Shown: positions 17,613-18,447 of the stretch, piece by piece
How the letters are laid out: each line of letters opens with the position of its first letter
Numbering within the stretch: the stretch's first letter is position 1
Assembly (NCBI RefSeq): GCF_017592825.1
Contig: NZ_JAGFMD010000006.1
Location: 1 to 64,000, forward strand
Direction: 5' to 3'
From: Roseivirga sp. E12
Lineage (GTDB): Bacteria > Bacteroidota > Bacteroidia > Cytophagales > Cyclobacteriaceae
Length of the DNA: 64,000 nt
Position numbers and translations under genes: made by a program
The notes under the pieces: generated by a model
Told to the model about the DNA's origin: nothing
Databases searched by the model: none
What the model saw: only the letters and a program-made list of their open reading frames with translations

Positions 17613-17648
17613 ATTAAAAAAGGTCACGGCAAGTCGAGGCCTTTTTTT
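17613..17648. terminator. Bidirectional terminator shared with a tRNA remnant
   Basis: AAAAAAGGTC ... GGCCTTTTTTT forms a hairpin whose arms end in A and T runs, so it can work for the plus-strand CBM9-like gene. On the minus strand it follows a tRNA 3'-end relic, exactly as hairpins follow the tRNA copies at 17898 and 18244. It was therefore probably a tRNA terminator originally. Confidence 0.65.
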
Positions 17649-17668
17649 GTGGAGCATACCAGGGTCTA
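17649..17668 (-). pseudogene. 3'-end relic of a tRNA-Ala copy
   Basis: GTGGAGCATACCAGGGTC matches the acceptor/T-arm end of the tRNA-like copy at 17898 (GTGGAGAATACCAGAGTC) at 16 of 18 positions, and is followed on the minus strand by its own terminator. Only the last 20 or so bases survive; the rest has been lost. Confidence 0.55.
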
Positions 17669-17696
17669 AACACTCTGATTCACACTTGTGGTGCGG

Positions 17697-17745
17697 AATA
17701 TTCAAGTGTTTTACACCTGTCTGCCGACATGCAGGAACTACACCT
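17697..17745. repeat. Palindromic repeat copy
   Basis: AATATTCAAGTGTTTTACAC followed by the 20-bp palindrome (17716-17735, one mismatch) copies the block at 185-224. It continues into AACTACACCTAG, the same tail as follows the palindrome at 5528-5542. Confidence 0.7.
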
Positions 17746-17774
17746 AGATTAGGTATTTAGTTTAATCGATCGTA

Positions 17775-17858
17775 CTAGCCAAAGGCGTCATCACAACTGC
17801 CCACATAAAATCTATCTCTAGAATTGGAATAGATGATATACACATAAAACTCAGTCAT
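17775..17858 (-). pseudogene. Truncated second copy of the GIY-YIG nuclease
   Basis: The ATG at 17858 opens a 27-codon frame starting MTEFYVYIIYSNSRDRFYVG, which matches the intact nuclease start (MEDFYVYIIYSETRDRYYVG) at most positions. After about 23 codons homology stops, and a TAG follows inside a GATCGTACTAGCC repeat unit. Both halves of the GIY-YIG motif survive, but the catalytic Arg, His and Glu are gone. It lies behind a tRNA remnant and terminator just as the intact gene lies behind the intact tRNA. Confidence 0.8.
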
Positions 17859-17866
17859 AGTAAACC

Positions 17867-17891
17867 AAAAAAGCCCCGATACATCGAGGCT
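17867..17891 (-). terminator. Intrinsic terminator after tRNA remnant
   Basis: On the minus strand AGCCTCGA-TGTA-TCGGGGCT forms an 8-bp stem (one G-U pair) followed by TTTTTT. It sits between the tRNA remnant (17898-17955) and the nuclease remnant. Confidence 0.8.
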
Positions 17892-17897
17892 CTTATT

Positions 17898-17955
17898 GTG
17901 GAGAATACCAGAGTCGAACCGGTGACCTTCCCGAGATGCCTCGGGACGCTCTCTA
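17898..17955 (-). pseudogene. Decayed tRNA-Ala copy (3' half)
   Basis: The T-arm and acceptor side (GGTCACCGGTTCGACT..GGTATTCTCCAC) match the intact tRNA at 18244-18320. The D-arm side ends in CTAGAGAGCG, and the anticodon arm is replaced by the palindrome TCCCGA-GATGCC-TCGGGA (17929-17946, plus-strand reading). No 5' acceptor strand remains and CCA is changed to CAA, so no functional tRNA can form. The stop codon of the adjoining nuclease gene lies inside this relic. Confidence 0.8.
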
Positions 17956-18207
17956 GTCCAATGAGTTAATCAAATACTCGATATAGTTTCTCGACTTCTT
18001 ACGCTTGATCTCTGCCTCGCGTCTCCTTGCTTCAGAGCGAGTGTCATAAACCTCTGAATACTTCAAAACCCAGGGCTTACCTCTCTTTGTATAAGTAGAT
18101 CTGCCAGCATTATGGTCCACCAGACGATTCGTCAGGTTATCACAGCTCCCAACATAATAGCGATCGCGCGTCTCCGAATAAATGATATAAACGTAAAAGT
18201 CTTCCAT
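17953..18207 (-). CDS. GIY-YIG family nuclease, 84 aa
   Basis: The protein shows the GIY-YIG halves VYIIY (6-10) and YYVG (17-20), Arg28 (LTNRLVDHN), His32, a KPWVLKY strand and a basic helix with candidate catalytic Glu (EARRREAEIKRKK, about 59-71). Eighty-odd residues is the usual length of the stand-alone UvrC-like nuclease family common in Bacteroidota. The ATG follows directly on the T run of the tRNA-Ala terminator, with no room for a separate promoter, so expression would require readthrough from the tRNA. The stop codon is provided by the tRNA remnant downstream. A truncated second copy lies at 17775-17858. The substrate is unknown. Confidence 0.85.
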   Translation of the reverse strand: MEDFYVYIIYSETRDRYYVGSCDNLTNRLVDHNAGRSTYTKRGKPWVLKYSEVYDTRSEARRREAEIKRKKSRNYIEYLINSLD

Positions 18208-18238
18208 AAAAAAAGGCCAGCCAACGCCAGCCTTTTTA
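18208..18238 (-). terminator. tRNA-Ala terminator abutting the nuclease start codon
   Basis: On the minus strand AAAAAGGC ... GCCTTTTTTT forms a hairpin with an 11-12-nt loop. Its T run is immediately followed by the ATG of the GIY-YIG gene, so the nuclease mRNA can only start by readthrough or within the hairpin. Confidence 0.75.
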
Positions 18239-18243
18239 AATAA

Positions 18244-18320
18244 TGGTGGAGAATACCGGAGTCGAACCGGTGACCTCTACACTGCCAGTGTAGCGCTCTA
18301 GCCAGCTGAGCTAATCCCCC
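18244..18320 (-). tRNA. tRNA-Ala (anticodon GGC), CCA encoded
   Basis: The 77-nt minus-strand sequence folds fully: acceptor GGGGGAT with ATTCTCC including the G3-U70 pair diagnostic of tRNA-Ala, D-arm GCTC..GAGC, anticodon arm CTACA-CTGGCAG-TGTAG giving anticodon GGC, variable loop AGGTC, and T-arm ACCGG-TTCGACT-CCGGT. It ends in an encoded ACCA. This is the only intact tRNA among several decayed copies (17649, 17898, 18370). Confidence 0.95.
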
Positions 18321-18369
18321 ATTGTAATCTGTTCTTACTTTTAAGAACAGTAAAATTCTTTTCTATTAA

Positions 18370-18447
18370 CCGCTGACCTTCCCGAGCAGTGACTCGGGAC
18401 GCTCTAGCCAGCTGAGCCTGTCTGCCGACAGGCAGGCTAATCTCCCT
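18370..18447 (-). pseudogene. Decayed tRNA-Ala copy carrying a 20-bp palindrome insertion
   Basis: On the minus strand GGGAGATTAGC ... CTCAGCTGGCTAGAGCG matches the 5' half of the intact tRNA-Ala. The stretch is split at 18417-18436 by the palindrome CCTGTCTGCCGACAGGCAGG; removing it restores GCTGAG-CTAATCTCCC with no base lost. The anticodon arm is replaced by TCCCGA-GCAGTGAC-TCGGGA (18380-18399, plus reading). The T-arm stops at GGTCAGCGGTTAA and there is no acceptor 3' strand. It cannot be a working tRNA. Confidence 0.85.
18417..18436. mobile_element. 20-bp palindromic element inserted in a tRNA remnant
   Basis: The element is identical to the copies at 205-224 and 464-483 and almost identical to 17716-17735. 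Flanks GCTGAG and CTAATCTCCC join exactly to give the intact tRNA sequence, so it inserted without visible target duplication (one shared C at most). No transposase is encoded nearby. The class resembles Rickettsia-type palindromic elements only by behaviour. Confidence 0.6.

Follow-up and report, generated by a model that had tools for sequence, protein, structure and literature searches.

The window examined here, the first 64,000 nucleotides (nt) of contig NZ_JAGFMD010000006.1 of Roseivirga sp. E12 (assembly GCF_017592825.1), carries on its minus strand, between positions 17,613 and 18,447, a gene for a transfer RNA (tRNA), tRNA-Ala(GGC), followed by a hairpin, by the gene of a small GIY-YIG nuclease and by fragments of further such units. 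Read together with its relatives, this locus probably (with a likelihood of roughly 0.7) represents a widespread family of small mobile elements, free-standing and homing-like, which reside in tRNA genes, with one branch beside the gene for transfer-messenger RNA (tmRNA), and which bring along a replacement half-tRNA. Each element would encode solely a GIY-YIG nuclease of about 80-100 residues and would enter a tRNA gene, supplying a replacement for the half that it cuts off. Two types of insert are proposed, namely type A, made of a new tRNA 3' part, a terminator and the nuclease gene, and type B, in which the nuclease gene is joined to a new 5' part of the tRNA. The tRNA would stay functional, and the old half would persist next to the nuclease gene as a remnant in which an unrelated hairpin often takes the place of one cloverleaf arm. 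Linkage, shared strand, specificity for tRNA identity, remnants, hairpins, tandem arrays, coexisting alleles and one displaced terminator are direct observations; the mobile reading is preferred because of the parsimony of labels on a tree of 117 proteins, the common strand of all 155 linked genes, the remnants, the terminator of one relative (genome G008; G and L numbers denote genomes and loci) and the contrast between two nuclease clades, I and II.

Along the minus strand, the locus opens with a 5' tRNA-Ala remnant, followed by the intact tRNA-Ala(GGC) gene, the terminator-like hairpin and the 84-residue GIY-YIG gene, after which come a tRNA-Ala remnant that is nearly whole, another hairpin, a nuclease copy truncated to 27 codons and a weak third tRNA 3' end. 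Its parts, with fold z-scores in brackets, are the following:

About 18369 to 18447, minus strand: 5' tRNA-Ala remnant with two hairpin replacements or insertions, broken off ahead of the T loop.
18417 to 18436, minus strand: palindrome in the D arm of this upstream remnant (z -2.7).
18380 to 18399, minus strand: palindrome replacing the anticodon arm of the upstream remnant (z -3.6).
18244 to 18320, minus strand: intact tRNA-Ala(GGC) gene, confirmed by, among others, Rfam.
18208 to 18238, minus strand: terminator-like hairpin between the tRNA and the nuclease gene (z -4.0).
17953 to 18207, minus strand: gene of the 84-residue GIY-YIG nuclease (PF01541).
17898 to about 17971, minus strand: nearly whole tRNA-Ala remnant, its acceptor 5' strand gone and its anticodon arm swapped.
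17929 to 17946, minus strand: palindrome replacing the anticodon arm of this downstream remnant (z -4.3).
17869 to 17894, minus strand: second terminator hairpin, found by the terminator scan (z -4.6).
17775 to 17858, minus strand: truncated second nuclease copy of 27 codons, with 18 of 24 residues identical to the intact protein by eye.
17646 to 17679, minus strand: third, decayed tRNA 3' end, with 68% identity to the second copy.
17616 to 17645, minus strand: third hairpin, weak (z -2.8).

The intact unit had been proposed from the letters alone in the original prediction, and the tRNA call, the fold of the hairpin and the Pfam match bear it out. The hairpin between the tRNA and the nuclease gene, which is absent from the listing of a simple consensus terminator scan, reaches -9.4 kcal/mol when folded as DNA, a value equalled by none of 200 shuffles, and the nuclease ATG lies directly after its T-run. 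The 84-residue protein scores 62.7 bits against PF01541 (cut-off 22.6), its sole Pfam match, and its residues Y7, Y18, R28 and E64, presumably the catalytic Tyr, Tyr, Arg and Glu positions of the GIY-YIG superfamily, are invariant across 13 diverse members. Moreover, the 3'-terminal codons and the stop of the nuclease ORF (open reading frame) are tRNA-remnant sequence: the second tRNA remnant overlaps the 3' end of the ORF, so that its end, first placed at 17955, moves to about 17971. For this second unit the hairpin, the 27-codon nuclease start and the 18-of-24 identity hold as proposed, and the tRNA piece, described earlier as a 3' half, is nearly whole. The decayed 5' part is present as foreseen, and comparable 5' remnants precede an intact tRNA-Ala at L127 and L131. 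The third tRNA 3' end and its hairpin are also in place; weak individually, they are plausible given the tandem context. The hairpins that replace tRNA arms (17929-17946, 18380-18399 and 18417-18436) are new, and in both better remnants the anticodon arm is swapped for a TCCCGA-n-TCGGGA hairpin.

The idea that tRNA genes serve as landing places is well supported by clade linkage, by isotype variety, by the tRNA-Ala alleles and by a displaced tRNA-Asn terminator. Specifically, the genome of the window (G000; 4.70 Mb, 37 tRNA genes by Rfam) gives 12 PF01541 matches, two in long frames of 605 and 460 residues, presumably a UvrC-like protein and an exonuclease fusion, and 10 in small ones. A tRNA gene accompanies five of these 10 (one each at Asp, Asn and Ala, plus two in tandem between tRNA-Val and tRNA-Pro), and four are within 100 nt of a tRNA; with a chance of about 0.004 that a random ORF of this genome has a tRNA so close, at least four of 10 would occur with P about 6e-8. 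The survey comprises 29 genomes, namely G000, 18 others of the same genus and 10 of other families in the order, and takes as loci the listed matches with open frames below 200 residues, the weakest matches not being among those listed. Its 109 loci divide into 50 of clade I and 59 of clade II on a maximum-likelihood tree of 117 small GIY-YIG proteins (58 rows in clade I and 59 in clade II; 100 columns, with many forks unresolved). As the original prediction anticipated, the genes of the relevant clade are enriched beside tRNA genes: among the matches listed, clade I has a tRNA gene within 100 nt at 33 of 50 loci and within 500 nt at 37, whereas in its sister, clade II, no locus of 59 has one even within 1000 nt (Fisher test, 1e-15 at 100 nt and 2e-18 at 500 nt). 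Eight further clade-I loci, with proteins of the MHTVYIL type (L081, L082, L084, L098, L099, L101, L102 and L119), all follow a tmRNA gene of the same strand at a distance of 177-600 nt; GGCTTCGGTGGAG-like sequences recur around several of these tmRNA-linked loci. Three clade-I loci (L023, L083 and L114) show, by eye, tRNA debris only or a contig edge, and L060 and L061, both of G020, show none of these features.

Orientation and identity are equally constrained. Over all analysed loci there are 238 GIY-YIG ORFs, of which 155 have a tRNA or tmRNA gene within 650 nt, and all 155 lie on its strand, a count that includes tandem copies, duplicates and related genomes rather than independent events. 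The linked tRNAs span many isotypes. When 20 labels combining tRNA identity and architecture, assigned by reading of the loci, are placed on the 117-protein tree, 19 changes suffice, which is the minimum (mean of shuffled labels 47.2, none of 200 as low), a kind of score that near-copies favour. A broader tree of 159 proteins, 147 of them labelled, requires 33 changes for 14 labels (minimum 13, shuffled 104.2, none of 200 as low). Because the counts fall far below the shuffles on both trees, the protein tree largely tracks tRNA identity, and, judged by these sequences, different nuclease lineages are specialised for different tRNA identities. Identity is thus kept within nuclease lineages, yet it has been switched repeatedly.

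Two architectures recur. In type A, an intact tRNA is followed by a terminator, the nuclease, a remnant of the 3' part of the same tRNA and a copy of the terminator, after which several loci continue with the first codons of another nuclease copy. In type B, a 5' remnant precedes the nuclease and the intact tRNA follows it, the nuclease stop lying near, abutting or overlapping the tRNA. Remnants were scored at 117 of the 163 GIY-YIG genes with any tRNA or tmRNA in their locus, 46 having been dropped (43 more than 200 nt away, two duplicates and one without a usable tRNA) and the duplicates L231/L276, and perhaps L024/L275, having been kept. With 1170 matches to tRNAs for other amino acids as the control and their 99th percentile as the threshold, a far-side remnant of the same tRNA is present at 90 of the 117 genes (69/89 of type A and 21/28 of type B), and the match to the own tRNA beats all 10 mismatched controls of the same flank in 109. 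The possibility, raised at the outset, that the tRNA-like pieces are chance similarities is excluded, since the similarity of the distal flanks to their own tRNA far exceeds that to mismatched ones.

The hairpin is common in these remnants but not universal. A perfect stem of at least 6 bp occurs in 67 of the 90 remnants and one of at least 7 bp in 53, against 11-13% and about 3%, respectively, of dinucleotide shuffles and 28 and 24 of the 90 intact cognate tRNAs. By eye, it usually replaces the anticodon arm or part of the T arm; TCCCGA- or TCCCGC-type hairpins are found in remnants from several phyla (L266, L272, L282, L286), and in the tRNA-Asp units L202, L212 and L221 the stop codon of the nuclease lies inside the hairpin. 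The replacement hairpin may shield the remnant from cutting, and hence confer immunity, or may block the formation of a second functional tRNA. In the genome of the window, TCCCGA-n-TCGGGA has 24 copies, against 11 for the reversed pattern, and inspection by eye places 7 to 9 of these 24 inside tRNA remnants: five belong to the nuclease loci of Ala, Asp and Asn, two are by tRNA-Gln and probably one each by tRNA-Cys and by an unidentified tRNA end. Several other copies sit in the tips of other palindromic repeats, and at L176, L177, L179, L180, L188 and L190 the motif lies within or beside palindromic repeats such as GTCATTGCGA...GAAGCAATCTCC. A genome-wide mobile palindrome that came to lie here by chance was considered and is rejected only in part, as the hairpins favour tRNA remnants and are not exclusive to nuclease loci. 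In the same genome, the stretches at L184 (tRNA-Gln), L185 (tRNA-Cys) and L178 display apparent tRNA remnants bearing these replacement hairpins, with no nuclease gene by eye; these are likely footprints of lost units.

Units are frequently repeated in tandem, with two, three and four copies at tRNA-Val, two at tRNA-Thr, two at tRNA-Pro and five at tRNA-Asp (L106, L118, L117, L092, L003 and L212, respectively), and the repeated unit measures about 300-450 nt. The duplicated tRNA and terminator pieces would act as direct repeats, leading either to tandem multiplication, up to five units in one locus, or to deletion with scars. At L201, nine ARAGORN tRNA genes (Asp, Gly) stand in tandem with the nuclease unit, possibly an amplification of intact tRNAs, and at L256 the nuclease gene is flanked by two ARAGORN tRNA-Phe genes.

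Comparison of alleles within the genus places occupied and empty sites side by side. The contrast between tRNA-Ala loci with and without the nuclease, which the original prediction proposed to examine, is present among the 18 genomes with a match, read by eye (G015 has none): seven carry the nuclease, of type A in G000, G001, G008, G014 and G017 and of type B in G016 and G018; six hold debris without it (G002, G004, G005, G006, G009, G013); and five have neither (G003, G007, G010, G011, G012), although G007 may hold a decayed start. The same tRNA-Ala is hence occupied in different species by two distinct nuclease clades of opposite architecture. At tRNA-Asn, matched in 19 genomes (G015 not being readable with the pattern used), GIY-YIG-like coding sequence is found in G000, G004, G007, G009 and G016, in the last perhaps broken, and G013 perhaps retains a decayed one. 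Occupied and empty alleles at one site in close relatives, the pattern by which a free-standing homing endonuclease is judged, are therefore found at both tRNA-Ala and tRNA-Asn, and patchy presence, two clades at one locus and label switches are the observations that bear on horizontal spread. In the proposed cycle, the nuclease would cut the tRNA gene and repair would copy the unit from an occupied donor, resulting in homing; that the nuclease itself drives this movement was offered with like reserve in the original prediction, and may be so.

At the tRNA-Asn locus of G008, the tRNA is followed by a terminator, by short debris ending in about the last 8-10 tRNA bases and by a second terminator. 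This post-debris terminator matches that of the empty loci of G011 (43/45) and G012 (42/44), with lesser matches to G001 and G002 (32/45 each) and G014 (17/18), none of 200 shuffles being as good in any of the five cases, and the tRNA-proximal terminator shows little similarity to those of G011 and G012 (equalled by 5 and 56 of 200 shuffles, respectively). The simplest reading of these sequences is that a new 3' end took over in the tRNA and displaced the former one downstream. At tRNA-Asn in G004 and G006, the flanks are identical at 283 of 300 positions upstream and 365 of 400 downstream, G004 is longer by 403 nt, and G006 keeps 12 nt of the nuclease start, a difference as would be expected of a deletion between direct repeats, although the opposite direction may also apply.

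The family extends well beyond the genus. Of 296 genomes sampled from the phylum, 198 are matched by a profile of 13 clade-I proteins. Because the profile also picks up clade II (in the genome of the window it has 11 matches, for five clade-I genes), this figure can only be a maximum for the tRNA-linked kind. Among the best-scoring matches, which are no random sample of the phylum, 28 of 30 loci returned (one being the window's own) have a tRNA gene, as do 38 of a further 40 hand-chosen loci, L255 having none and L232 lacking a frame long enough to evaluate. A search with an Ala-type alignment found 30 named loci, of which 22 have a tRNA gene and several of the other eight lie at contig ends; three of the 30 records are Roseivirga, repeating or neighbouring genomes already counted, and L276 duplicates L231. 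The 22 tRNA-linked loci are assigned to Bacteroidota (Roseivirga, Pontibacter, Flavobacterium and others), Cloacimonadota, Ignavibacteria, Deltaproteobacteria and Patescibacteria, mostly as metagenome bins with the usual uncertainty of host assignment, and the sole Chlorobiota record (L290) has no tRNA within its stretch.

A TATATTTG box, presumably a native element of the tRNA promoter, lies at 18535 to 18542 on the minus strand, beyond the 5' remnant and about 215 nt upstream of the intact tRNA, versus about 10 nt before tRNA-Ala in G004, G006 and G008. The promoter scan lists no minus-strand site between the tRNA and the nuclease gene in the window, and transcription reading through from the tRNA promoter probably drives the nuclease gene. 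The upstream neighbour, an NlpC/P60 gene (18561 to 19034, minus strand), occupies this position at the tRNA-Ala locus in several other genomes of the genus too. On the other side of the locus, the ORF at 16662-17591 has a glycine-rich degenerate tandem repeat at its 3' end (window positions 17396-17536).

Several points weigh against the mobile reading. The displacement of a native end rests on one locus with short debris, in a setting where terminators vary among empty loci; the order of the terminators is supportive in G008 only, the tRNA-Ala of G004 and G006 being a less clear second case and the tRNA-Ala locus of G014 having the two terminators in the opposite order. Even in G008, the post-debris terminator does not resemble those of G018 or G003, and the tRNA-proximal one has a weak match in the empty G018 (30/42, none of 200 shuffles as good). 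Among the alleles compared, no direct gain of a unit into an empty tRNA gene and no transfer was seen, and a transfer vehicle is missing, because relatives of the Ala-type protein were found neither in phage records (tblastn, E 1e-5) nor in plasmid records or viral contigs, the other identity types lying outside this search. Moreover, 27 of the 117 genes have no remnant above the 99% control level, a BLAST search around the tmRNA-linked nucleases gave no convincing piece of tmRNA, the intact tRNA would be expected to stay open to cutting, and many flanking terminators are near-identical copies, so that tandem duplication of a resident unit could explain much.

This last point leads to the foremost alternative, an ancient resident gene that travels as a passenger with tRNA genes by vertical inheritance, gains or loses copies through ordinary unequal crossing-over and has no active mobility. 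Recombination between repeats would account for the identical or near-identical tandem units and for the G004/G006 pair, and a protein tree that tracks tRNA identity is what vertical descent at a fixed locus would give; a fixed passenger is harder to reconcile with one tRNA-Ala that holds nuclease clades of opposite architecture in different species, with 33 label switches where 13 would suffice, with the displaced terminator in G008 and with the recurrence of the arrangement across several phyla, and it is accordingly judged unlikely. Another alternative, an improbable one, assigns the nuclease a service to the host, whereby the enzyme favours duplication of the tRNA segment to let the dose of tRNA vary under stress or phage attack and is kept by selection for this. 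The frequent tandem arrays and the published amplification of tRNAs driven by SegB (PMC13096335) speak for such an amplifier; the extra tRNA copies, however, are mostly truncated and many have a swapped arm, which leaves the dose unchanged (the nine tRNAs of L201 are an exception), and presence within one genus is patchy. Least probable of all, with a very small chance, is a defence protein or toxin that acts on tRNA or other RNA, such as an anti-phage nuclease, for which tRNA linkage would be a matter of regulation: a Val-type relative weakly matches a candidate defence protein (E 5.7e-05), but the window protein has no PADLOC match, the DNA structure nuclease SLX1 is among the nearest solved relatives, and tRNA remnants, half replacement and arrays are left unexplained. 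Three other candidates were excluded. A self-splicing or group I intron fails because the tRNA is uninterrupted and is the sole Rfam match at 17000-19000; an integrase-borne tRNA island fails because, besides the GIY-YIG gene, no ORF with a recognisable domain was identified either in the unit or in the array period; and a REP/RAYT system fails because the only Pfam match of the protein is PF01541, not an HUH tyrosine transposase.

The proposed mobile elements share traits with several known systems. Integrase-borne islands, the textbook case of mobile DNA that targets tRNA genes, insert in these genes, restore the tRNA end and leave a displaced copy; the window-type unit differs in measuring about 300-450 nt and in holding a GIY-YIG gene only, with no integrase. 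The solved structures with the best profile matches are UPF0213 proteins (1ZG2 and 1YWL, E 4e-16 and 1.5e-14) and SLX1 (E 9.5e-10 to 5e-07). To our knowledge, no mobility or tRNA linkage is described for UPF0213 proteins, and a literature search gave one unrelated match. A homing-endonuclease PHROG is matched weakly (E 3.5e-4).

Closer in logic are a phage enzyme and a group of fungal elements. SegB of phages T4 and T6 is a free-standing GIY-YIG homing endonuclease of the phage tRNA region, which promotes amplification of the tRNA segment and is statistically linked to tRNA genes without isotype preference (PMC13096335; PMC2988022); the window family resembles it in being GIY-YIG, free-standing and linked to tRNA genes of many isotypes. 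Unlike SegB, the family is chromosomal, has proteins of about 80-100 residues, is specialised by tRNA identity and adds a proposed replacement tRNA half and a remnant with a swapped hairpin, and tblastn with the window protein against phage records yields no match at E 1e-5 that would relate it to SegB. The fungal mitochondrial mobile ORFs, exemplified by Allomyces atp6 and by Glomus atp6, atp9, cox2 and nad3, join a free-standing endonuclease, of the GIY-YIG kind in Glomus atp9, to a duplicate of the host gene's 3' end, such that the inserted end is used and the native end persists downstream (PMC3630166). The half-replacement logic proposed here and the copy of a host-gene end beside the ORF (here in 90 of 117) match the fungal case; the fungal ORFs lie in mitochondrial protein-coding genes, whereas here the hosts are bacterial tRNA genes, either half would be replaceable, and a terminator and a hairpin are involved. 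REP/RAYT systems also place a small mobility-type gene amid palindromes, RAYTs being tyrosine transposases with an HUH motif that are partnered with REP palindromes (PMC3733652); here, conversely, the enzyme is a GIY-YIG nuclease and the hairpins lie inside tRNA remnants. In the 2006 survey of the GIY-YIG superfamily, the passages on tRNA that were available do not concern gene linkage, and the terms tmRNA, Bacteroid- and Cytophaga- do not occur in the text searched (PMC1564403). Among the literature matches listed, which cover titles and abstract openings and few subscription papers, GIY-YIG genes in bacterial chromosomal tRNA genes are not described.

The sister clade opens a different line. 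In clade II, 46 of the 58 genes with long enough flanks have a flank-shared repeat with a score of at least 14 (17 inverted, 38 direct), a score reached in two of 58 by a shuffle control that covered the inverted kind; in clade I such repeats are found at 39 of 57 genes, as copies of tRNA and terminator would predict. CGTCA/TGACG tags number 128 in clade-II flanks against 32.1 expected, and 29 against 30.5 in clade I. Clade-II loci such as L001, L006, L007, L008 and L011 tend to sit inside CGTC-tagged palindromic repeats, and one repeat type has only six copies (up to three mismatches) in the genome of the window, two of which flank the L001 nuclease. These repeats resemble the published CGTC-tagged palindromes, which according to those who described them apparently have no dedicated transposase (PMC3733652), and the link between clade II and repeats of this type is a lead rather than a result. 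A unifying scheme is conceivable, if doubtful, in which small GIY-YIG proteins serve hairpin-based DNA mobility, clade I in tRNA and tmRNA genes by swapping arms or halves and clade II in CGTC-tagged palindromic repeats, both recognising folded DNA rather than sequence via a separate binding domain. Recognition of folded DNA is plausible because SLX1, which is structure-specific, stands with UPF0213 proteins as nearest solved relative, and, if true, it would explain the proteins of about 80-110 residues, the junction hairpins and the tandem arrays. The sister clade is a testable candidate for the missing enzyme of the CGTC-type palindromic repeats.

For the tRNA-linked family, the mobile reading would mean a much smaller route into tRNA genes than that of integrase islands, consisting of one nuclease of about 80 residues and a spare half-tRNA. 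It would give a role to small GIY-YIG proteins that are unnamed in the NCBI family library (NCBIfam names none of the five tried) and would provide a bacterial parallel to the fungal mitochondrial mobile ORFs. It would also suggest that some of the tRNA debris of these genomes is the footprint of such elements, and what emerges looks like an overlooked family of mobile elements that supply the replacement half of the gene they invade.

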